Source: a virus | Virus record (IMG/VR): IMGVR_UViG_3300005068_000018 | Location: 1-22,465 of that record | Direction: 5' to 3' (one strand) | DNA: 22,465 bases | Shown here: positions 10,038-20,500 of the stretch, piece after piece | Position numbering within the stretch: position 1 is the first letter of the stretch | Layout: each line of letters begins with the position of its first letter | Position numbers and translations under genes: made by a program | Notes under the pieces: model-generated | The model's database searches: none | What the model saw: the letters and a program-made list of their open reading frames with translations, nothing else | Told to the model about the DNA's origin: nothing

Positions 10038-10844
10038 ATGGGCAAAAAACGTTTATTTTTATCAGTAATTATTGTTTTTGCTATGATATTTACTGGTGCT
10101 TGTGCCCCGGATGGAAACCCAAATACTGTCATTAAGGATTACTATCAGCACGTGCAAGATGGAAATTGGGAAGCAGCCTATCAATTGCTGGCTAAAGAAA
10201 CACAAGAAAATATTTCTCGGGAGGATTTTATTTTATATCAGAAATTATTAACAGAAACAATGAAGTTTGAAGAGTTTAAGGTTCAAAAGGTTAATCAAGT
10301 TGCTGATTTTAAGGTAAATGGAAAAAAGTATAATAATGTAGTTAAGTTTACGGTGACGGAAACCAATAAGGATTATTATGAAGATAAAGAAGTGACAAAC
10401 TCTCACGAGGAATATGTTGTAGATGATGGTGGGGTTTGGAAATTATGTAAAGATTCTAAGTTAATAAATTCTTCTATACCGCAGCAGTATTATAATTTGG
10501 CATTTATGTATTTTGAAGGTAAAGGGAAAGACAAGAACCTAATAAAAGCGATAACTAATTTTAAAAACGCAATTGAATACGATAAAGATTACGCGCCTGC
10601 TTATTATGGCCTGGGGAGTGCATATAATGATCTTGAGCGGTACGAAGAAGCCATTAATAGTATTAACTTATGTATTGAAAAAACAGTGATTAAAGAATTC
10701 AAGTCAGATGCTTATAATCTTTTAGGAATTGTATACTTAAATCAAGGAAACTACGAAAAAGCAAAACAGTATTATAATAAGGCTTTAGATATTTACCCTG
10801 AAAATGAATATGCGAAAAATAATTTAGCATCATTAAACAATTAA
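10038..10844 (+). CDS. TPR lipoprotein, probable moron
   Basis: 268 aa with a lipoprotein signal peptide: basic start MGKKR, hydrophobic core, then TGAC with Cys22 as the likely lipidated residue (Thr at -3 is unusual for a lipobox). Residues ~30-145 look like an NTF2/DUF4878-type domain (VIKDYYQHVQDGNWEAAYQLL ... VVDDGGVWKLCKDSKLI). Residues ~150-268 hold three or four tetratricopeptide repeats (YYGLGSAYNDLERYEEAIN; AYNLLGIVYLNQGNYEKAK). It is not a virion part by type. It is clearly AT-rich and splits tape measure from xkdP, which are normally adjacent. A secreted membrane-anchored protein made by a lysogen, perhaps altering the host surface or blocking superinfection, is my inference. Strong site GGGAGGTGG before ATG 10038; no clear promoter seen. 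Confidence 0.75.
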   Translation: MGKKRLFLSVIIVFAMIFTGACAPDGNPNTVIKDYYQHVQDGNWEAAYQLLAKETQENISREDFILYQKLLTETMKFEEFKVQKVNQVADFKVNGKKYNNVVKFTVTETNKDYYEDKEVTNSHEEYVVDDGGVWKLCKDSKLINSSIPQQYYNLAFMYFEGKGKDKNLIKAITNFKNAIEYDKDYAPAYYGLGSAYNDLERYEEAINSINLCIEKTVIKEFKSDAYNLLGIVYLNQGNYEKAKQYYNKALDIYPENEYAKNNLASLNN

Positions 10845-11532: not shown

Positions 11533-11850
11533 ATGCCGTCAACTGAACAAAGTATATTACCGTATAGTAAGGTTTGGTATAAACAGTTGGCCTCAAAAAT
11601 AACAGGGGTTTGTGATTTAAATGTTGTGAGGACTAAACCAGGTCATGTTGATTTATTTGTTGCTTTGGACTTAGAGGCTGAAGAAAAGGTGGTATGTGAA
11701 AGATTAATCAGGAGTATGGAAGCGGAAAAAGGTCTTACATTTAATTGCCGAGCCATACTCCTGAAGCCCGTAAGGATAATTAACTTAAATGGTGTTAAGG
11801 GAGTTCAACACGAGTCCCCAAAGGGATTAACTCATGTAGATAATCTCTGA
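11533..11850 (+). CDS. Unknown cassette protein A
   Basis: 105 aa, not recognised. There is no signal peptide or membrane segment. A helix (YSKVWYKQLASKI) is followed by two strands (DLNVVRT, HVDLFVALD), a helix (EEKVVCERLIRSMEAEKGL) and a final strand. The C-terminal part of the gene overlaps the oppositely directed gene at 11795-12274 by 56 nt. GGGGGGATG ends 7-8 nt before ATG 11533. It is not part of the conserved tail set and appears AT-rich compared with xkdP and xkdQ. The helix-strand-strand-helix order resembles both halves of the opposite gene's product, so the two may be distant relatives (weak). Confidence 0.6.
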   Translation: MPSTEQSILPYSKVWYKQLASKITGVCDLNVVRTKPGHVDLFVALDLEAEEKVVCERLIRSMEAEKGLTFNCRAILLKPVRIINLNGVKGVQHESPKGLTHVDNL

Positions 11851-12274
11851 TGACCATTTTCTCAACTTCAGATACACTGACATCTTCAGGAATATTAAAT
11901 TTAACTAAATCTCCTTCAACAGCAATCATGTCCATATTCAAAAAAGGAAAGGCAGCAGTAATTGTTCTTTTTATTCCTTTAGCGTTTAATTCTCCATTTA
12001 AAGCAAGTATTTTTATTTCTGGCGGAGGATCGTTTGCTGGAGGAATTTTATCTTTTTTTATAAAGGAGCAATGTTTAATCTCATGAATTAGGTGAGCCAT
12101 ACCATGAACACTTAAAAATTCTTTTAATTGTAGCTCTAAATGATTGGGCAACTCCAAGTTTTTATCGCAGACATATATAAAGACTTTATACTCACCAGGC
12201 GAGTAGACGCGCAGGTAATATATTTGAGGAAACATTTCGCGAATCATTTTTTCGTAACGCAACCTTGTTCCCAC
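11795..12274 (-). CDS. Unknown cassette protein B (opposite strand)
   Basis: 159 aa, the only convincing gene on the minus strand. It begins at GTG 12274, 4 nt after a perfect AAGGAGGTGA; the longer TTG reading from 12295 runs through that ribosome site. Two similar halves can be seen. Residues ~5-75: RYEKMIREMFPQ, YLRVYSPGEYKVFIYV, then a LELQLKEFLSVHG helix. Residues ~95-159: GIKRTITAAFPFLNMDMIAV, LVKFNIPEDVSVSEVEKMVI, LIPLGTRVEL. A Pro-rich linker (IPPANDPPPEIKI) joins them. It is unidentified, soluble and without catalytic motif. Its own promoter and opposite direction argue that it is expressed outside the late operon. Confidence 0.65.
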   Translation of the reverse strand: MGTRLRYEKMIREMFPQIYYLRVYSPGEYKVFIYVCDKNLELPNHLELQLKEFLSVHGMAHLIHEIKHCSFIKKDKIPPANDPPPEIKILALNGELNAKGIKRTITAAFPFLNMDMIAVEGDLVKFNIPEDVSVSEVEKMVIRDYLHELIPLGTRVELP

Positions 12275-12279
12275 ATTAT

Positions 12280-12310
12280 CACCTCCTTTTAGCAAATTTA
12301 ATGGATTATA
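12280..12310 (-). promoter_or_regulatory. Probable promoter and ribosome site for the minus-strand gene
   Basis: On the minus strand, a perfect -10 TATAAT lies at 12310-12305, and AAGGAGGTGA at 12289-12280 precedes the GTG start. A good -35 is not seen at 16-18 nt. Transcription would start near 12298, giving a leader of about 24 nt. Confidence 0.5.
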
Positions 12311-13779: not shown

Positions 13780-14234
13780 TGCCGAACCTCTTTCCACTTG
13801 AGGAAACAGTTACACAACCAGAAATAACCGAACAGAGCTCTGACCAGGTACGGTTTCCCAAGTCCTGGCGTTTTGACTTTGACAAAGGTGATTTTGTGCA
13901 AACACCTACCGGGAAGGTGGCCACGGCTGACGACATTCAGGCGTACACCGAATGGTGTTATAAGGCGCTATTAACACCGCGATACCGGTACCTGATCTAC
14001 AGCCGCAGCTATGGGCAGGAATTTGAGGACCTGATCCGGCGCAACCTTTCCCGGGCCGGTAATGAAAGTGAAATTAAGCGGATTATAACCGAAGCACTCA
14101 TGGTGGATCCAAGGACGGCCGAGGTGACCAATTTTGCGTTTTCCTGGGACGGTGACACGGTCTACGTGACTTTTGACGCGATAACCGTACGCGGCGACAG
14201 GGTAGAGCTTGGTACAGAGGTGGTGACCGGGTAA
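13779..14234 (+). CDS. Baseplate wedge protein (XkdS-like, DUF2634/gp25-like)
   Basis: 151 aa. It has the gp25-like lysozyme-fold pattern found in baseplate wedges: SWRFDFDKGDFVQTPTGKV, LLTPRYRYLIYSRSYGQEF, then RIITEALMVDPRTAEVTNFAF. It probably joins the sheath to the baseplate at the inner ring. The one-base TAATG overlaps at both ends indicate coupled translation with xkdR and xkdT. Confidence 0.88.
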   Translation: MPNLFPLEETVTQPEITEQSSDQVRFPKSWRFDFDKGDFVQTPTGKVATADDIQAYTEWCYKALLTPRYRYLIYSRSYGQEFEDLIRRNLSRAGNESEIKRIITEALMVDPRTAEVTNFAFSWDGDTVYVTFDAITVRGDRVELGTEVVTG

Positions 14235-15355
14235 TGGTATTGCCAGATTTTTTAACTGAAGAAACCGAAGATGAAATTTTGACGCGTATGCTAGCCAGGG
14301 TGCCGGATGATATTGATAAATCCGAGGGTTCGTATATCTGGGACGCGCTGGCGCCAGCGGCTGCTGAAATAGCGCAGCTGAAAATTGACATGAGAAACTT
14401 TCTGGACCGGGCCTTTGCCAGTACAACTTTCGGGAAATACCTTGATTACCGGTGCGAGGAACATGGATTGACTAGGAAGGCGGCAACAAAATCAACCGGC
14501 CAGGTCAAGTTTACTGGTACTGCGGGTACGCTTATCCCAGTCGGTACAGTGGTAAGCACCACGGCTGACGCCGCCACAGACACCCAGTCAGTGGAGTTTG
14601 TTACACTGGCTGATGTAACTATCCCGGCTGAGGGGTATGTAACTGCCAACATCGAGGCATCAGTGGCTGGTGACAGTGGCAATGTTGCAGCTGGAGCCAT
14701 AGACCTGCTTGACGTGCCCATAACAGGCGTATCTTCGGTGACCAATGAGGCAGCGACTACCGGAGGCGCCGACGAAGAGGATGACGCCAGCCTGCTGGCA
14801 CGTTTCCTGGCCAAGGTACAAAGCCCGGGTACCAGCGGCAACAAGGCGGACTATAAACAGTGGGCGCTTGAAGTGTCCGGAGTTGGCGACGCTCAGGTAG
14901 TACCACTTTGGAATGGTAATGGTACTGTAAAAGTAGTGCTCTTGGATGCTGATAAATTGCCTGCCAGCCAGGTCCTGGTGGATGAGGTTCAGGCATACAT
15001 ATCCCCGGATCCGGCTCAGGGTGAAGGTAAGGCACCCATTGGAGCAACGGTAACAGCGGCAGCCGCCACGGCTGTTAACATTGATGTGACGGCAACTGTG
15101 ATATTGGACGGTACCAGGACCTTGGTCAATGTGCAGGCAGATTACGAGGACGTCTTGGTTGATTATTTCAAAGAGATTGCTTTTAGCGATGACCCGGCGG
15201 AAAGGGCGGTAAAATACAGTAAGGTGGGAAGCCTGCTTCTTGATGTTAAAGGGGTTACCGATTATAACAACCTGACAGTTAACGGTGGTACCGCCAATAT
15301 CGCGATTAACACTGGTGAGGTAGCCGTCAAAGGGACGGTGACCTTGAGTGAGTGA
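14234..15355 (+). CDS. Baseplate J-like protein (XkdT-like)
   Basis: 373 aa. A classic gpJ/gp47-type wedge: N-terminal EILTRMLARVPDDIDKSEGS followed by IWDALAPAAAEIAQLKIDMR, the ATTGGADEEDDASLLARFLA motif after the first beta domain, and KADYKQWALEVSGVGDAQV. The C-terminal domain is VNIDVTATVILDG and onwards. It builds the wedge arms that open when the sheath contracts. ATG 14234 overlaps the previous stop, and its own end overlaps the next GTG. Confidence 0.92.
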   Translation: MVLPDFLTEETEDEILTRMLARVPDDIDKSEGSYIWDALAPAAAEIAQLKIDMRNFLDRAFASTTFGKYLDYRCEEHGLTRKAATKSTGQVKFTGTAGTLIPVGTVVSTTADAATDTQSVEFVTLADVTIPAEGYVTANIEASVAGDSGNVAAGAIDLLDVPITGVSSVTNEAATTGGADEEDDASLLARFLAKVQSPGTSGNKADYKQWALEVSGVGDAQVVPLWNGNGTVKVVLLDADKLPASQVLVDEVQAYISPDPAQGEGKAPIGATVTAAAATAVNIDVTATVILDGTRTLVNVQADYEDVLVDYFKEIAFSDDPAERAVKYSKVGSLLLDVKGVTDYNNLTVNGGTANIAINTGEVAVKGTVTLSE

Positions 15356-15935
15356 CGATGTACTGACCTCCGAGCGTGGCAAAGTGATGCTCTCAAATTG
15401 CCCGCGGTATTACGATACCAGTCGAGTATTTAAGTCGCATCTACAGACTAGCGGTGAGGAACTGGATGGACTAAAACAGGGGATCAATGAGATTTTGGAC
15501 CAGTTTTTTGTTCCAACGTCAACCTGGGGGCTGGACCGTTGGGAAGAGGAGCTGGGGCTTGAATCTTACGCTGATAAGCCATATGAGCAAAGACGCTCCC
15601 AAATTATTTCTAAAATCCGTGGTATTGGTACGGTAACGATACAACTAATTCAAAACGTTGCTGAAGCGTACGATGGAGGTTCGGTTGAGGTTGAGGACCA
15701 TCCCGAAACATATAGTTTTATAGTTCGTTTTATTGATACGCGCGGGGTACCAGAGAACTTGGATGATTTGAAAAACACAATAGAAGAGATAAAGCCGGCC
15801 CATCTAAATGTGGAATATAAATTCCGTTATCTTATTTGGGATGAACTGGATAACATAAACACAACTTGGGATTCGCTAGATGCTCATCTTTATAGCTGGG
15901 ATCAGCTAGAGGTTCTGGACCCAGCTACTTATTAG
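15348..15935 (+). CDS. Baseplate/tail protein (XkdU-like, DUF2313/YmfQ)
   Basis: 195 aa. The body is typical of XkdU/gpI: MLSNCPRYYDTSRVFKSHL, LDQFFVPTSTWGLDRWEEEL, then YEQRRSQIISKIRGIGTVT and IEEIKPAHLNVEYKFRYL. It lies at the outer edge of the baseplate, where fibres attach. Unusually, the last ~30 residues carry three WDxLD decapeptide units, the same unit that is repeated in the product of 16830-17315. GTG 15348 overlaps the end of xkdT by 8 nt. Confidence 0.85.
   Translation: MSDDVLTSERGKVMLSNCPRYYDTSRVFKSHLQTSGEELDGLKQGINEILDQFFVPTSTWGLDRWEEELGLESYADKPYEQRRSQIISKIRGIGTVTIQLIQNVAEAYDGGSVEVEDHPETYSFIVRFIDTRGVPENLDDLKNTIEEIKPAHLNVEYKFRYLIWDELDNINTTWDSLDAHLYSWDQLEVLDPATY
15834..15911 (+). 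repeat. WDxLD decapeptide repeats in XkdU C-terminus
   Basis: Three units with Trp spaced exactly 10 residues apart: IWDELDNINT, TWDSLDAHLY, SWDQLEVLDP. The same unit occurs at 17019-17203. Confidence 0.8.
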
Positions 15936-15974
15936 TTATATTGAATTTACGCGGTTTGGGATGGAGGTGACCTA

Positions 15975-16133
15975 ATGGAATACCGAAACGGGCAAAGGGT
16001 GTTCATTGTCCTTAAAGGAGAAACCAAAAAGGCAACAATTATAGAGCACAACAATGAAAATTACATTGTTCAGCTGCTCGATGGGAGCAAAGTGGTCATT
16101 AAAGAAAGTGACATTTTGAGTGAAACATATTAA
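15975..16133 (+). CDS. Small SH3/KOW-like protein, unknown role
   Basis: 52 aa, with strong GGAGGTGA 4 nt before ATG 15975. The sequence MEYRNGQRVFIVLKGETKKA continues with TIIEHNNENYIVQLLDG and VVIKESDIL. This strand-rich pattern with a closing DG turn looks like a small SH3/KOW-type barrel. It lies between the XkdU gene and the fibre genes and is probably a minor baseplate or fibre-attachment part. The call rests on ribosome site, coding quality and tight packing in the operon; function is not known. Confidence 0.65.
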   Translation: MEYRNGQRVFIVLKGETKKATIIEHNNENYIVQLLDGSKVVIKESDILSETY

Positions 16134-16148
16134 TGGGAGGTGAGTGAG

Positions 16149-16826
16149 TTGCCTAATTATTTCAACCTGACGCTTGACACCACGGGCCCGGCGAATCCAA
16201 GTATTTCAATAGAAGGTGGGGCTCAATATGCAACTCAGCAATTAGTTGACTGTGCTATTGATACCACAGATGGCAACACCACCGGGTACCAGATGAAGAT
16301 TTGGGGCGATGTGGATACCGCCTATGACACTGATGTGCAAGACACGGAGGCAACATCAAACTGGATAACGTTCCAAGAATCAAAGCAGGTAAAATTAGCA
16401 AGCGGTGATGGTAATAAAACACTGTATGTCCGTATCCGTGACGACGTGCATAACGAATCTGGCCAGGCCAGCGACAGCATAAATCTTGACACCACAAAGC
16501 CGGTAGTTACGATTTCCGGACCGGACGTAACCAAAATTTCTAAAGTAGCTGGTAAGGATGTCTGTGCATTCAGCTTCCAGGTGGATTCTACCTTCACCGA
16601 GTATAAGGTTAAAGTTGTGTCCAGTACGGGTGCATCCCACGATACCGGTACCATGATACCCACAACAGCCGGCTCAACCAATATGTCAGACAGTGGCAGC
16701 TTTGCAGCCACCACACCCATCGATTGCTCTATTAAAGGCGCAGACCTTGAAGCGGCCAGCGCCGGGGACGGTACTAAGATAATTAAAGTGTTCGCAAAGG
16801 ACGAGGCCGGCAACTGGAGTGCGTAA
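16149..16826 (+). CDS. Tail-tip/fibre protein with Ig-like domains
   Basis: 225 aa, Thr/Ser/Asp-rich and beta-stranded, with no aromatic core of an enzyme. It starts PNYFNLTLDTTGPANPSISI. LDTTxPxVxI openings occur twice (near 8 and 115) and are typical starts of bacterial Ig-like modules; each module ends with a strand such as LYVRIRDDVHNESG or IKVFAKDEAGNWSA. I chose TTG 16149, 5 nt after GGAGGTGA (16136-16143). The in-frame GTG at 16140 lies inside that ribosome site. It is probably a structural or carbohydrate-contacting part of the tail tip. Related modules occur in the next two genes. Confidence 0.65.
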   Translation: MPNYFNLTLDTTGPANPSISIEGGAQYATQQLVDCAIDTTDGNTTGYQMKIWGDVDTAYDTDVQDTEATSNWITFQESKQVKLASGDGNKTLYVRIRDDVHNESGQASDSINLDTTKPVVTISGPDVTKISKVAGKDVCAFSFQVDSTFTEYKVKVVSSTGASHDTGTMIPTTAGSTNMSDSGSFAATTPIDCSIKGADLEAASAGDGTKIIKVFAKDEAGNWSA

Positions 16827-16829
16827 GTT

Positions 16830-17315
16830 ATGACCGCACCCAATATAGTGATTAAATCAGTAAGCCGGGCGAAAATAAGCGACGAACCCGGAATGGATAA
16901 CTGCGAAGTGAAATTCCTTGCTGATCAAGACCTGGTGGACTGGGAAGCCCGGGCGGATGGAAGCGGGGTAAAACAGGGCCTTTTGGTCGGAAAGGCAATT
17001 ACCGATCCCATTCCTAAAACCTGGGATGAGCTTGACGCGAAGGCATATTCCTGGGATCAATTCGATGCTTTAAGTCAAACCTGGGATGAGCTGGATGACC
17101 GCCGCATACTAATTCCGGACACTACCTGGGACGAGTTAGATGCCCTGGCGCAGACGTGGGACCAGCTTGATGCGAAAAGTGAAACCTGGAATGAGTTTGA
17201 CGGCCGGGAGGCATCTTTCATCGTTAAGGACGAGGAACTTACCCTGGGCGATAAAACATATCGCATAAACGTATACGGAAAAAACGAAGCCGGGGAGTGG
17301 ACGCCTTATGGCTAA
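16830..17315 (+). CDS. Tail-tip protein with WDxLD decapeptide repeats
   Basis: 161 aa. Residues ~1-60 and ~130-161 form one Ig/FN3-like frame (NIVIKSVSRAKISDEP ... YRINVYGKNEAGEWTPYG). Into its middle are set six (T/S)W(D/N)(E/Q)(L/F)D units (residues 64-125). The repeats interrupt what reads as a strand-rich domain, so they may form an extended loop or stalk. Ribosome site is weak (GGAG about 12 nt upstream), and the gene is probably coupled to the preceding one. It is most likely a fibre or tip component. No enzymatic motif. Confidence 0.65.
   Translation: MTAPNIVIKSVSRAKISDEPGMDNCEVKFLADQDLVDWEARADGSGVKQGLLVGKAITDPIPKTWDELDAKAYSWDQFDALSQTWDELDDRRILIPDTTWDELDALAQTWDQLDAKSETWNEFDGREASFIVKDEELTLGDKTYRINVYGKNEAGEWTPYG
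17019..17203 (+). repeat. WDxLD decapeptide repeats
   Basis: Six units: TWDELDAKAY, SWDQFDALSQ, TWDELDD, then after a short insert TWDELDALAQ, TWDQLDAKSE, TWNEFDG. Codons differ between units (TGGGATGAG, TGGGACGAG, TGGGATCAA), so the unit is kept at protein level. Confidence 0.85.
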
Positions 17316-17796
17316 TTTCTTCAAGGTAGAATTGGATACCACGCCGCCGTCAGTGTCAATTACGGCCCCCAGCTATACAATTCCGCATATTGATACTGAA
17401 ATTATTATTACTGCGAACGAACCCCTGGATAAATACCAGGAGTTTTTTATTGTCGACAGTGCGGGCACCAGGCATGACTTAATTTTTGATTACCGTGGCG
17501 ATTCATTCCGGGGAGTGATAGACTTTTGGGATTACGCCCTCGGGATAGCTACCGTTTATGCCCGGGTGAGGGATGAGGTGCATAACCTGTCCGAGATTGT
17601 CATGGCCACGATAGACATTAAGAAAGCGGCTCAAGTATTTATCACAATTGAGGATACTTTCAAGGATATACAAATAACCGAAAACATAATGCCGCTGGCT
17701 ATATCGCAAAACCAAAGGGAAGTGCAAATATCAGAAACAACCAGGGAAGTGATGCTTGATGAAATGACGCGGAAAGTTGAGGTGGCGGCAAAGTGA
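17308..17796 (+). CDS. Tail-tip/fibre protein with Ig-like domain and 9-residue C-terminal repeats
   Basis: 162 aa, starting MANFFKVELDTTPPSVSITA, close to the start of the product of 16149-16826. The Ig-like module runs to about residue 105 (VYARVRDEVHNLSE matches VRIRDDVHNESG in the relative). The tail (~108-160) is repetitive: REVQISETT, REVMLDEMT, RKVEVAAK, period 9. That could form a beta-roll or triple-stranded stem. ATG 17308 overlaps the end of the previous gene by 8 nt. Confidence 0.65.
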   Translation: MANFFKVELDTTPPSVSITAPSYTIPHIDTEIIITANEPLDKYQEFFIVDSAGTRHDLIFDYRGDSFRGVIDFWDYALGIATVYARVRDEVHNLSEIVMATIDIKKAAQVFITIEDTFKDIQITENIMPLAISQNQREVQISETTREVMLDEMTRKVEVAAK

Positions 17797-18077
17797 AGCA
17801 GCATATTCAAATGGGTAACACCGTAAGGCTTACAGCCCAGTTCAGCGATTGGGATGGCAACCCGGTGGACCCGGCCCTTATAAAAGTCAAGTTCTATGAT
17901 ACCAGGTTCAAGCTACTTGAAGAACACAGCGTCGGGGCTGCCAACAAATTGGATGTGGGCAGCTATTATTTTGATTACGTTCCTCAGGTTCCCGACACTA
18001 TCTATTATGAATGGTATGCAGAGATTGATGGATTGCCGTCACTAAAACGTGATAGCTTGACGGTGCGAAAAATTTAG
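17793..18077 (+). CDS. Small beta-sandwich tail protein, unknown
   Basis: 94 aa: GNTVRLTAQFSDWDGNPVDP, VKFYDTRFKLLEEHSVG, then IYYEWYAEIDGLPSLKRD and a closing strand. This is the pattern of a single Ig-like module found in small phage tail and baseplate-upper proteins. GTG 17793 overlaps the previous stop (GTGA), with GAGGTGG upstream. It probably contacts the fibre that follows. Function is not recognised beyond the fold guess. Confidence 0.6.
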   Translation: MKQHIQMGNTVRLTAQFSDWDGNPVDPALIKVKFYDTRFKLLEEHSVGAANKLDVGSYYFDYVPQVPDTIYYEWYAEIDGLPSLKRDSLTVRKI

Positions 18078-18090
18078 GGAGGTGTAAAGA

Positions 18091-18885
18091 TTGCCAGAAC
18101 AAACACCTAAACTTGGCATCAAAAAGCCACTGGGAAATGAAACGGTATCCCGGGCGGCGTTTAATGAAAACTACGATATAATTGACCAGAATGCTGCTAG
18201 CCAGGCTGACCTTGATGCGCATTTGGCCGATACTATGCCACACGGTACGGTATCAAATATTACTTATTATGTGGATGCTGTAAACGGAAATGATGCAAAT
18301 GATGGTTTAACAAGCGGCAATGCTCTTAAAACCATAATGGCGGCAATAAAAAAGTTGCCGTCTATAATCAGGCATACAGTAACAATAAGTTTAGCAGCAG
18401 GAACATACGCAGAGCATGTATATTTATTGGGTTTTGTCGGGAGTGGAACCATAAATATTGTAGGTGGTTCCGATTTAGCAGCAGCGGATAATTATAAAAT
18501 TGACTACTTAACAATTAAAAACTGCGGTTGTTTTGTAATTGTACAAGGACTGAATGCAACTAAAACTTCAATAACAGGTTCATTTTTAATAAATAGATGT
18601 ATTGGTTGTGTTTTTTATTACTGCAAAAGTGTTTCAACCGATTTAACAATGAAAGGAGTAGAAGCAAAAAGATCTTTTGGATATATACAAGAATGTGATT
18701 TTTCAAATAAGAATTATGCTATTGAAGGAAGGGCAGGGGCAATAATATTCTCAAGTAACAACTCTGGAAGTGGCAACAATTATGGCTTAAGTGCCCAAGA
18801 AGCAAGCACCATAGGCAAGCATGGAACTCAACCAACTGGCACAACTGCAAATGAAACTACCGGAGGCGGGGGTGCTATTAGATGA
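18091..18885 (+). CDS. Tail fibre/spike with beta-helix domain
   Basis: 264 aa. N-terminal residues 1-52 (LGIKKPLGNETVSRAAFNEN, then DLDAHLADTMPHG) are the widespread fibre anchor of Firmicutes phages. Residues ~58-225 begin YYVDAVNGNDANDGL and continue as short strands and turns. This is the opening of right-handed beta-helix proteins of the DUF1565/pectate-lyase-like type, used as spikes that bind or cut surface glycans. The end is Gly/Thr-rich. TTG 18091 follows GGGAGGTG. DNA from about 18,280 on is more AT-rich than the anchor part, so anchor and receptor-binding parts may have different origins. No catalytic residues assigned. Confidence 0.75.
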   Translation: MPEQTPKLGIKKPLGNETVSRAAFNENYDIIDQNAASQADLDAHLADTMPHGTVSNITYYVDAVNGNDANDGLTSGNALKTIMAAIKKLPSIIRHTVTISLAAGTYAEHVYLLGFVGSGTINIVGGSDLAAADNYKIDYLTIKNCGCFVIVQGLNATKTSITGSFLINRCIGCVFYYCKSVSTDLTMKGVEAKRSFGYIQECDFSNKNYAIEGRAGAIIFSSNNSGSGNNYGLSAQEASTIGKHGTQPTGTTANETTGGGGAIR

Positions 18886-19136
18886 TGAAATACCTCTATA
18901 TTAATGGGGAATTATTTAATGAGCAAGGCGTGCAAAAAATAGTTGTAAATGATACGGACATTATAGGATGTAATGGAGAGTTTGAAGTGTTTGCCCTGCG
19001 CGGGGTTAGTTTCGATAAGATAACTTATCAAATTAAGGATGAATTAGGAAATGTTGTATCTCCTGATAAAACAGAGTTGCAGATATTACAAGAAATGGTC
19101 GACCAGTTAGTAATAGATAGTTTAGGAGGTGTTTAG
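18882..19136 (+). CDS. Small tail protein in the xkdW position, unknown
   Basis: 84 aa: KYLYINGELFNEQGVQKIVV, a strand-rich core (NGEFEVFALRGVSFDKITYQI), then an acidic helix (ELQILQEMVDQLVIDSL). The helical end is common in small proteins encoded just before XkdX. ATG 18882 overlaps the fibre stop (ATGATGA). The order fibre, small protein, XkdX-like protein copies PBSX xkdV-W-X. It may be a fibre chaperone or a tail cap; not shown by sequence. Confidence 0.6.
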   Translation: MMKYLYINGELFNEQGVQKIVVNDTDIIGCNGEFEVFALRGVSFDKITYQIKDELGNVVSPDKTELQILQEMVDQLVIDSLGGV

Positions 19137-19256
19137 GTGTACGAAACACTTCTGCGACTATGGAAGGCAGGAAAGTTAACTGAGGTGATGCTAGACAATG
19201 CAGTTACTAAAGAATGGATAACTAGTGAGCAAAAAACTACAATTATATCGTCTTAG
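19137..19256 (+). CDS. XkdX-like small tail protein
   Basis: 39 aa: MYETLLRLWKAGKLTEVMLD followed by NAVTKEWITSEQ. It matches the XkdX family pattern (Tyr-x-x-Leu-x-x-Leu-x-x-x-Gly-Lys, then a V-x-K-x-W-I-T helix). Family members are about 40-55 aa and are encoded after the fibre genes; function is unknown. GTG 19137 comes directly after the previous stop, with AGGAGGTG ending 5 nt before. It is the last gene of the structural operon. Confidence 0.75.
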   Translation: MYETLLRLWKAGKLTEVMLDNAVTKEWITSEQKTTIISS

Positions 19257-19260
19257 GATT

Positions 19261-19284
19261 TTAATGTGTATTAATACACATTAA
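19261..19284. promoter_or_regulatory. 24-bp perfect palindrome, probable operator
   Basis: TTAATGTGTATT followed by its exact complement AATACACATTAA, with no spacer. It lies 5 nt after xkdX, with no T-run, so it is not a terminator. It is just upstream of the promoter of the ribbon-helix-helix/Ntn-hydrolase unit, a place suited to a dimeric DNA-binding regulator. Confidence 0.75.
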
Positions 19285-19290
19285 TGAAGA

Positions 19291-19340
19291 TTTATGCCGG
19301 GAACATTTTCCTGTATAATCACCTCCAAGGAGGGGTGATT
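19291..19340 (+). promoter_or_regulatory. Probable promoter and ribosome site of the accessory unit
   Basis: A perfect -10 TATAAT is at 19314-19319; the best -35 at 17 nt spacing, TTTATG, is weak. Start of transcription would be near 19326. AAGGAGGGGTG (19328-19338) serves ATG 19342. AATCACC (19317-19323) and GGTGATT (19334-19340) are inverted repeats around the ribosome site, so read-through RNA from the late operon could fold there, while RNA from this promoter could not. Confidence 0.5.
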
Positions 19341-19341
19341 A

Positions 19342-19493
19342 ATGGCGGCTACCAAAAGAGTTAATATTACACTGGATCCGGATTTTTGAAAGTGGCAGAA
19401 CGAAAAGGGATGAAGGTCTCGACGTGGATTAATCAGCAGATGAAAAAATTTGTTGAAGAGGAAGAAGAGAAATCAAAAAGAGGCTGGTGGTAG
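19342..19493 (+). pseudogene. Ribbon-helix-helix regulator, frameshifted
   Basis: ATG 19342 reads MAATKRVNITLDPDF and stops at TGA 19387-19389. The -1 frame continues without a break: LKVAERKGMKVSTWINQQMK, then KFVEEEEEKSKRGWW, to TAG 19491-19493. Joined, this is a 50-aa ribbon-helix-helix protein of Arc/CopG type (strand RVNITLD, then two helices). Five Ts at the break, where six would keep the frame, suggest a one-base deletion. A sequencing error or slippage on TTTTT is also possible. Such proteins bind palindromes, and one lies 58 nt upstream. It pairs with the Ntn-hydrolase gene 22 nt downstream. Confidence 0.75.
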
Positions 19494-19514
19494 TTTTACA
19501 GGGAGGGAAAAGTT

Positions 19515-20291
19515 TTGACTTGGATTATTGGAGGAAATACCGTATCTGGATACTGTTATGCCTTCTCTGACATACAAGTTTCATGGGGAAATGGGTTTAG
19601 CCTTGATTGTTTGCAAAAGTTTTACCAATTAAGTGATAATATTGGTGCAGGATTTGCCGGGAGCGTGAGCTTAGGTTTTAAAATGTTAAATAACCTAAGT
19701 GAATTTATAAGGAAGGAACGCGGTAGAAGCAACCCCGAATATCTTATAAAAAGATGGAGTAGGTTGGCCAGGAACACATATAATAAAGCGCTACCAATAG
19801 AGAAAAAACTAGGGTGCCAAATCCTAGTTCTTGGTGTAAATTTGAATGAAAAAATTTTGCCGAATTTGGCCAAAACACATGTGGCAAAACTATCTGCTCC
19901 TAATTTCAGGCCACTGTTTACAAAAAGATATAATATTACTTCTATAGGTTCAGGTTCATCGGAAGCAGAATACAAGAAGGTCATTAATTGGCTAAACGAA
20001 AACCCTAATGACTCACTGTTTAAGTTTGAAACATCATCCCACCAATACGGAGCATCTGTTATTGTAAATATATTGGTCTCAGATATGCTAAGGGAGATGC
20101 CTAAATTCGGAATAAGTAAACACTTACATTGCATAGTTGCTACAGAACAAGGTTTTCTAATTACTAATAACGATACAAGTTCCGAAAACGAGGAATTTAA
20201 CCGAAAAATGCCTGAAGTAGCAAAAGGATACTCGGAGTTTTTAGAACTTTGTAAAGAAAAAGGGTTAAAAGCGGCAATTGCACAAACTTAA
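19515..20291 (+). CDS. Proteasome/HslV-like Ntn-hydrolase
   Basis: 258 aa. After Met removal, Thr is the first residue (TWIIGGNTVSGYCYAFSD). The spacing fits proteasome beta subunits: Thr1 nucleophile, Asp18 in FSDIQVS (Asp17 in proteasomes), Lys34 in LQKFYQLSDNIGAGFAG (Lys33, followed by the conserved AG turn). Later come CQILVLGVN (the LL.AG.D strand) and ITSIGSGSSEAE (the IGSGS region holding Ser129). A C-terminal DxxS motif is not evident. It has no propeptide, as in HslV. TTG 19515 follows GGGAGGGAAAAG. It sits between promoter 19314 and terminator 20332, outside tail and lysis modules. Substrate and an unfoldase partner are unknown. Fold call is from motif spacing; activity is inference. 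Confidence 0.72.
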   Translation: MTWIIGGNTVSGYCYAFSDIQVSWGNGFSLDCLQKFYQLSDNIGAGFAGSVSLGFKMLNNLSEFIRKERGRSNPEYLIKRWSRLARNTYNKALPIEKKLGCQILVLGVNLNEKILPNLAKTHVAKLSAPNFRPLFTKRYNITSIGSGSSEAEYKKVINWLNENPNDSLFKFETSSHQYGASVIVNILVSDMLREMPKFGISKHLHCIVATEQGFLITNNDTSSENEEFNRKMPEVAKGYSEFLELCKEKGLKAAIAQT

Positions 20292-20331
20292 AGTAATGAA
20301 GGGTTTTGGAAAAAAGAAGAGCTACAAGAAG

Positions 20332-20357
20332 AAGGCACCTAAACGGTGTCTTTTATT
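20332..20357 (+). terminator. Rho-independent terminator after the Ntn-hydrolase gene
   Basis: Stem AAGGCACC / GGTGTCTT (8 bp with one G-U pair), loop TAAAC, then TTATT. It lies 40 nt after the gene. Confidence 0.75.
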
Positions 20358-20367
20358 AGTACAGAAT

Positions 20368-20500
20368 TTATGTCGCATTAGTATTTACTTATATAGATAA
20401 ATCTTCATAAACCCGCATGAATACTGGTTTATGGAGATACCAGAGAATAGGACTTAAATGCGACATAAGAGGCGCCCACTTGGGCGTTATTTTTATGTCG
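20368..20500 (+). promoter_or_regulatory. Structured leader with alternative pairings before the lysis genes
   Basis: Three related segments are present: 1, TTATGTCGCATT (20368-20379); 2, AATGCGACATAA (20457-20468), the exact complement of 1; 3, TTATGTCG (20493-20500), complementary to part of 2. Segment 2 can pair with 1 or 3 but not both. Between 1 and 2 lies a second hairpin, ATCTTCATAAACC (20401-20413) with GGTTTATGGAGAT (20426-20438), with one G-U pair. Pairing of 2 with 3 encloses the terminator-like hairpin at 20473-20494. This resembles an attenuator. No open frame or tRNA was found here. Confidence 0.55.
20473..20494 (+). terminator. Terminator-like hairpin before the lysis module
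   Basis: CGCCC, loop ACTT, GGGCG, then TTATTTTT. The stem is only 5 bp plus two G-U pairs, so it could be a weak or conditional terminator. Confidence 0.55.

Follow-up and report, generated by a model that had tools for sequence, protein, structure and literature searches.

The DNA analysed here, which we call the window, is a 22,465-base virus record with a G+C content of 44.6%. Its gene order is that of a contractile-tailed phage, running from head genes through sheath, tube, tape measure, baseplate and tail fibre to a small XkdX-like ORF, followed by genes for a holin-like protein, a zinc-ribbon protein, an amidase and a holin; the phage is of the myovirus type. Its host is probably a Firmicute, because most of the best matches of the baseplate J protein (34–45% identity) come from Brevibacillus, Geobacillus, Bacillus and Clostridioides phages. 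A search for relatives through the sheath protein returned short contigs alone. Between the XkdX-like ORF (E 0.0057 and 17.1 bits against its Pfam model, under the cut-off of 23.5) and the lysis genes lies a slot that holds a proteasome-like hydrolase gene (Table 1).

Table 1. Features of the slot between the tail operon and the lysis genes of the window.
Feature	Position	Strand	Remarks
XkdX-like small ORF, 39 aa, last tail-operon gene, left slot edge	19137..19256	+	PF09693
Perfect 24-bp palindrome TTAATGTGTATTAATACACATTAA, candidate operator	19261..19284		Upstream of RHH gene
TATAAT, possible -10, no good -35	19314..19319	+	Sequence; promoter scan did not call it
RHH (CcdA-like) gene, frameshifted	19342..19493	+	Stop after 15 codons, rest in other frame
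Ribosome-binding site GGGAGGG, 7 nt before TTG start	19501..19507	+	Sequence
Proteasome-like Ntn-hydrolase gene	19515..20291	+	258 aa, TTG start, G+C 36%
Thr2 codon (Thr1 once Met is removed), predicted nucleophile	19518..19520	+	Thr/Ser in 6/6 family members
Asp19 codon, counterpart of proteasome Asp17	19569..19571	+	Invariant in family and in bacterial/phage HslV-type proteins
Lys35 codon, counterpart of proteasome Lys33	19617..19619	+	Invariant
Gly49 codon, counterpart of oxyanion-hole Gly47	19659..19661	+	Invariant
IGSGS motif, residues 144–148	19944..19958	+	Glycines kept in 5/6 members, serines vary
Possible weak terminator stem, 10 bp, after hydrolase gene	20330..20354	+	RNAfold z -1.85
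Long structured element, stems TTATGTCGCATT/AATGCGACATAA and ATCTTCATAAACC/GGTTTATGGAGAT, right slot edge	20368..20496	+	RNAfold z -5.7

The hydrolase ORF is real and intact, and its reading by an earlier note on this DNA held at the level of the sequence: the extent, strand and length of the frame were confirmed, the start codon is preceded by a ribosome-binding site, the claimed Thr, Asp and Lys are residues 2, 19 and 35 when Met1 is counted, and IGSGS lies where it was described. The product begins MTWIIGG, with Thr directly after the start Met, so the propeptide is absent, as claimed; residues from about 190 to 258 form a family-specific C-terminal part. The low G+C content of the gene is by itself no mark of a foreign insert, because the genes flanking the slot (18091–19256; tail-fibre genes) are likewise AT-rich, at 34–39% G+C.

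Profile and structure comparisons tie this protein to the proteasome. The window protein matched the Pfam Proteasome family (PF00227) at E 1.7e-4 with 21.7 bits (gathering score, 22.4 bits), and its homologues on their own also matched that family, weakly and under the cut-off. The lone window sequence reached an E of about 0.1 against HslV and archaeal proteasome beta models, and 0.022 against the proteasome beta subunit 8oix_N in the PDB. With the family profile, 8oix_N was the best PDB match (E 6.5e-4), followed by HslV chains only, and hhalign aligned the family to HslV at E 8e-5 with a probability of 61%. Two AlphaFold models, computed from three input sequences only, had mean pLDDT values of 52.4 and 48.7, with residues 1–35 below 50. 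The better-modelled part consists of two strands, two helices, two long strands, a short strand and two helices, an order that, in a low-confidence model, fits a proteasome subunit. For both of these low-confidence models, the top 50 Foldseek matches were proteasome subunits only (probability 1.00, TM about 0.34; best E 1.2e-4 and 3.4e-4, respectively). Together with the conserved catalytic columns described below, these matches uphold the proposed proteasome/HslV-type relationship: the product is very probably a proteasome-like N-terminal-nucleophile hydrolase, distantly related to proteasome and HslV subunits, and the proteasome-like fold and threonine chemistry predicted from conservation and the low-confidence models are highly likely.

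Narrower assignments were rejected. The protein scored 12.1 bits against HslV models with cut-offs of 157.75 (TIGR03692) and 137 (NF003964), and 12.2 bits against the 20S proteasome beta model TIGR03634 with a cut-off of 224; no alpha subunit gene was found. Neither the window protein nor its homologue L004 matched any PHROG, including PHROG 1040 ('peptidase HslV family'), to which the controls phAPEC8 gp175 (E 1.6e-63) and a bacterial HslV (E 4e-20) did match.

Five homologues with 20–36% identity to the window protein were found, on Vibrio and Salmonella plasmids and in Acidobacteria and gammaproteobacterial metagenome-assembled genomes (MAGs). Identity is 36% for the copy in an Acidobacteria MAG (E 8e-48), 32% for the plasmid copy from Vibrio coralliilyticus (E 7e-27) and 23% for the one on Salmonella plasmids (E 2e-4); another homologue lies in a gammaproteobacterial MAG, and a remoter one, in which Ser replaces Thr at position 2, lies in another Acidobacteriota genome (L016). 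A weakly matching protein of 298 aa that starts MSL (L019) was excluded from the family as too distant. The five members with Thr share M1, T2, W3, G12, D19, C32, K35, F47, G49 and G54, and the L016 homologue retains all of these apart from its Ser2. Thr or Ser after Met, together with D19, K35 and G49, is thus found in all six members, which agrees with the conservation that the catalytic assignment predicts. The motif is not a chance one, because M1, T/S2, D19, C32, K35, F47, G49 and G54 are conserved across independently found homologues. In an alignment of the family to which two HslV proteins from bacteria and two HslV-type proteins from phages were added, D19, K35, G49 and G145 were among the invariant columns; the first three correspond to Asp17, Lys33 and Gly47, the positions named for the proteasome-like family (PMC8665760), and G145 falls in the SGS region of the window protein.

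The MTW-type family, as we refer to it after its first residues, is rare and patchy. It had matches in 3 of 297 Acidobacteriota genomes, one of them a fragment at a contig end, and in 2 of 369 gammaproteobacterial genomes, one of them weak; a first genome scan with the lone window sequence gave no match. No viral relative was detected in IMG/VR by single-protein scans, alignment scans or a degenerate DNA pattern for MTW...DIQ, scans that records near the window may have escaped, and tblastn with three family members as queries found no match in phage records. The homologues found sit on plasmids and chromosomes, and none in the other phages searched.

The earlier note had held that a proteasome-type peptidase is not a known part of phage virions or lysis. 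Taken to mean that phages are not known to carry such a peptidase, this claim is outdated, because several such proteins are already on record. A 2021 study by Fuchs, Alva and Lupas introduced 22 new subfamilies of proteasome-like proteins, among which PPH and AAH occur in phages, with unknown function and no unfoldase partners; propeptides are confined to proteasome beta and HslV (PMC8665760). In phage RXM, one protein bears the annotation of bacterial proteasome homologue (PMC8953757); Alteromonas phage V22 encodes a proteasome-like protein (PMC7289586), and many phapecoctaviruses carry the 'peptidase HslV family' proteins of PHROG 1040. We found no functional study of a phage proteasome homologue in the literature searched.

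The window protein resembles each of these groups in part. Like PPH and AAH, it is proteasome-like and phage-borne, has no propeptide, carries the Thr/Ser1-Asp17-Lys33-Gly47 set and has no unfoldase partner. PPH, however, has about 140 residues and no helix H2, whereas the window protein has 258 residues, a pair of helices following the GFAG strand (as modelled at low confidence) and no PHROG match. With PHROG 1040 (phAPEC8 gp175 and relatives) it shares carriage by phages, an MT start (MTT in PHROG 1040) and alignable Asp, Lys and Gly columns, but identity is 14% with no detectable membership, and PHROG 1040 phages have genomes of 140–150 kb with the gene near PhoH, in contrast to a location between tail and lysis genes. 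In HslV (ClpQ), GDGQVT...K...GFAGS aligns with SDIQVS...K...GFAGS of the window protein; unlike HslV, the latter has a long C-terminal extension, and no HslU accompanies it among the window ORFs scanned. A Met-Thr start and an extended C-terminus also fit group II (FC1–FC5, GPH and DAH), WPH and Anbu, which we set against the window family by description only, so that the family may be one of them; FC1–FC4 are confined to Firmicutes, and FC5 occurs in Firmicutes and Actinobacteria (PMC8665760). By sequence comparison with PHROG 1040, and by description with the published subfamilies, the window protein appears to represent a rare separate branch outside PHROG 1040. What the case adds is such a branch in the role of cargo in a phage, while its homologues on plasmids and chromosomes have nuclease, SIR2-like and RES genes close by.

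Evidence that the gene is cargo comes from a related phage contig in IMG/VR (L027), which has 89.9% DNA identity to window positions 15525–18243, diverges inside the tail fibre and aligns again at 20470–20497, the terminator preceding the lysis genes. The stretch of L027 from its XkdX-like gene to that terminator is occupied by an unrelated, AT-rich gene of 413 aa (13826–15067; 34% G+C; no Pfam match) and a small reverse ORF, and the hydrolase family is absent from the whole contig. Because this close relative has a different gene in the same place, the hydrolase gene is very likely a moron, that is, cargo at a variable site that follows the tail operon and precedes the lysis module. Comparable hotspots, in which the accessory genes at a fixed place vary among close relatives, occur in another phage group, the P2-like phages, and in P4-like satellites (PMC9122126).

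The comparison with L027 is the strongest support for the moron idea, above the promoter argument originally made for it, which is weaker because promoter-like sites in the region are at chance level (4 found, 5.2 expected from shuffles). Of the architecture first claimed, the placement between tail and lysis genes therefore stands, and a promoter of the gene's own finds no support in the scan. Its proposed terminator fared in between: the stem just after the gene is plausible and weak, and the clear, Rho-independent terminator called by the terminator scan lies at 20471–20496, at the end of the structured element, and is kept in L027. This element, which also coincides with inverted repeat I11, forms a 100-nt long-stem structure with an outer stem of 12 bp and an inner one of about 13 bp; it matched no Rfam family, and its arms occurred in no other viral contig searched. 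It may serve the lysis genes that follow as a leader or attenuator, or else mark the edge of the slot as a recombination site. Separately, a GTCGCAT/ATGCGAC inverted motif lies near the end of each of the two slots (L027, 15080–15120; window, 20368–20379 and 20457–20468); the two phages might share it as a terminator or a site of recombination. The lysis module of L027 also contains a subtilase gene (15979–17076; Peptidase_S8, E 1e-39) between the zinc-ribbon and amidase genes.

The sole functional hint found lies in the neighbours of the homologues. Some 3–5 kb downstream of its homologue, the Vibrio plasmid encodes two nucleases, one matching Aga_Nuclease of PADLOC (E 2.5e-68) and one resembling NucC (E 4e-20), and in the Acidobacteria MAG the next gene is PDC-S02/YhcG (E 4e-132). 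The immediate neighbours of the homologue in the gammaproteobacterial MAG are a SIR2-like gene upstream (E 0.002) and a RES-domain gene downstream (E 7e-5), and PDC-S31 (E 2e-44) lies 2.5 kb downstream. Defence-type genes thus stand near three of the five homologues, a count from five loci and no control set that cannot prove an association; defence genes gather on mobile elements anyway. The window itself has no defence-type neighbour, the homologue loci have no genes in common except the family itself and IS3 transposases, and PADLOC had no model matching the three family members submitted. As an observation in its own right, the SIR2-like, proteasome-like, RES-domain and PDC-S31 genes of the gammaproteobacterial MAG lie on one strand (L005, 5694–12303) and may constitute a defence island.

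We propose the following tentative explanation, whose chance of being right as a whole we put somewhat below even: the phage carries, as a moron, a propeptide-free proteasome-like hydrolase that protects the lysogen or host. Because Thr at position 2 permits methionine aminopeptidase to act, this enzyme would remove Met1 and free Thr2 as the N-terminal nucleophile, which, judging from conservation, Lys35 and Asp19 would activate in the manner of Lys33 and Asp17 of the proteasome. No AAA+ ATPase was seen among the window ORFs scanned, and no HslU, in agreement with the earlier claim that no unfoldase gene is near. The hydrolase probably acts without a dedicated unfoldase; since the window has none, its action may be a narrow one, in which it would cleave, or transfer onto, a single specific protein or a few of them, working either by itself or in a small homo-oligomer. 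The protection would be directed against other phages or mobile elements, as defence or superinfection exclusion. This part of the proposal is our leading guess, made because of the defence-type genes near three of five homologues, and a defence-type role is possible with the balance leaning against it. If it were true, it would give a branch of the proteasome family a testable role and bacteria an immune use of a proteasome-type hydrolase. A broader version, which we regard as rather unlikely, is that the MTW-type family (M-T/S-W, Asp19, Lys35) is an undescribed branch of stand-alone anti-phage or anti-plasmid effectors residing in cargo slots, plasmids and defence islands; it, too, would mean that bacteria put the proteasome fold to immune use.

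The main rival to a defence role is one in counter-defence or takeover on behalf of the phage itself, with the hydrolase degrading host or defence proteins during lytic growth, as the HslV-family proteins of large virulent phages may do. Such proteins are common in phapecoctaviruses, and the gene lies on the late strand in the gap between tail and lysis genes, where read-through from the tail promoter is possible. Against this, the gene is missing from L027 and must be dispensable, because so close a relative lacks it, and the homologues found occur on plasmids and chromosomes rather than in other phages. We consider a service to the phage unlikely, if still a serious contender. A general quality-control or housekeeping peptidase of the Anbu/BPH kind, picked up by chance and of benefit to the lysogen under stress, is improbable to a somewhat greater degree. 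Proteasome-like homologues are widespread in bacteria, with functions mostly unknown (PMC8665760), and the L016 copy adjoins ordinary metabolic genes and has no defence-type neighbour, but the family is too rare and patchy for a housekeeping peptidase, and several copies are on mobile elements.

The RHH gene raises a further alternative to the protective role, namely that the hydrolase is a toxin-like effector restrained by the RHH product. A CcdA-type gene does lie directly upstream (Pfam CcdA, E 9e-5 when read through), and the palindrome before it, reasonably taken as a candidate operator, could be bound by an RHH protein; it is the sole palindrome of such length in the window, and only 1 of 300 Markov shuffles contained one as long. 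However, the RHH gene that the earlier note counted as part of the unit is broken: from the ATG at 19342 it reads MAATKRVNITLDPDF and then TGA (19387–19389), and the CcdA-like remainder continues in another frame. The frameshift falls at a T-run, leaves the downstream hydrolase gene intact and marks either a dead regulator or a metagenomic read error. Furthermore, none of the homologues examined has an adjoining RHH gene. On these two grounds, the break in the RHH gene and its lack of conservation, we rejected the toxin–antitoxin reading as very unlikely. Least probable of all is that the protein has no catalytic activity or does something other than proteolysis, for instance as a ligase like connectase, which has the same fold and ligates rather than cleaves (PMC8665760): the C-terminal part has no assigned role, yet every core catalytic position is conserved, and the low-confidence model shows no sign, between the strands that lead to helix H1, of the two-helix insertion of connectase.

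Elsewhere in the window, two AT-rich ORFs without a Pfam match interrupt the tail operon at 11533–12295, one of them on the reverse strand (11795–12295). Between the tape measure and LysM tail genes, a gene at 10038–10844 encodes a TPR protein with a lipoprotein-like signal; with 31% G+C in a phage of 45%, it looks like a second cargo insertion.
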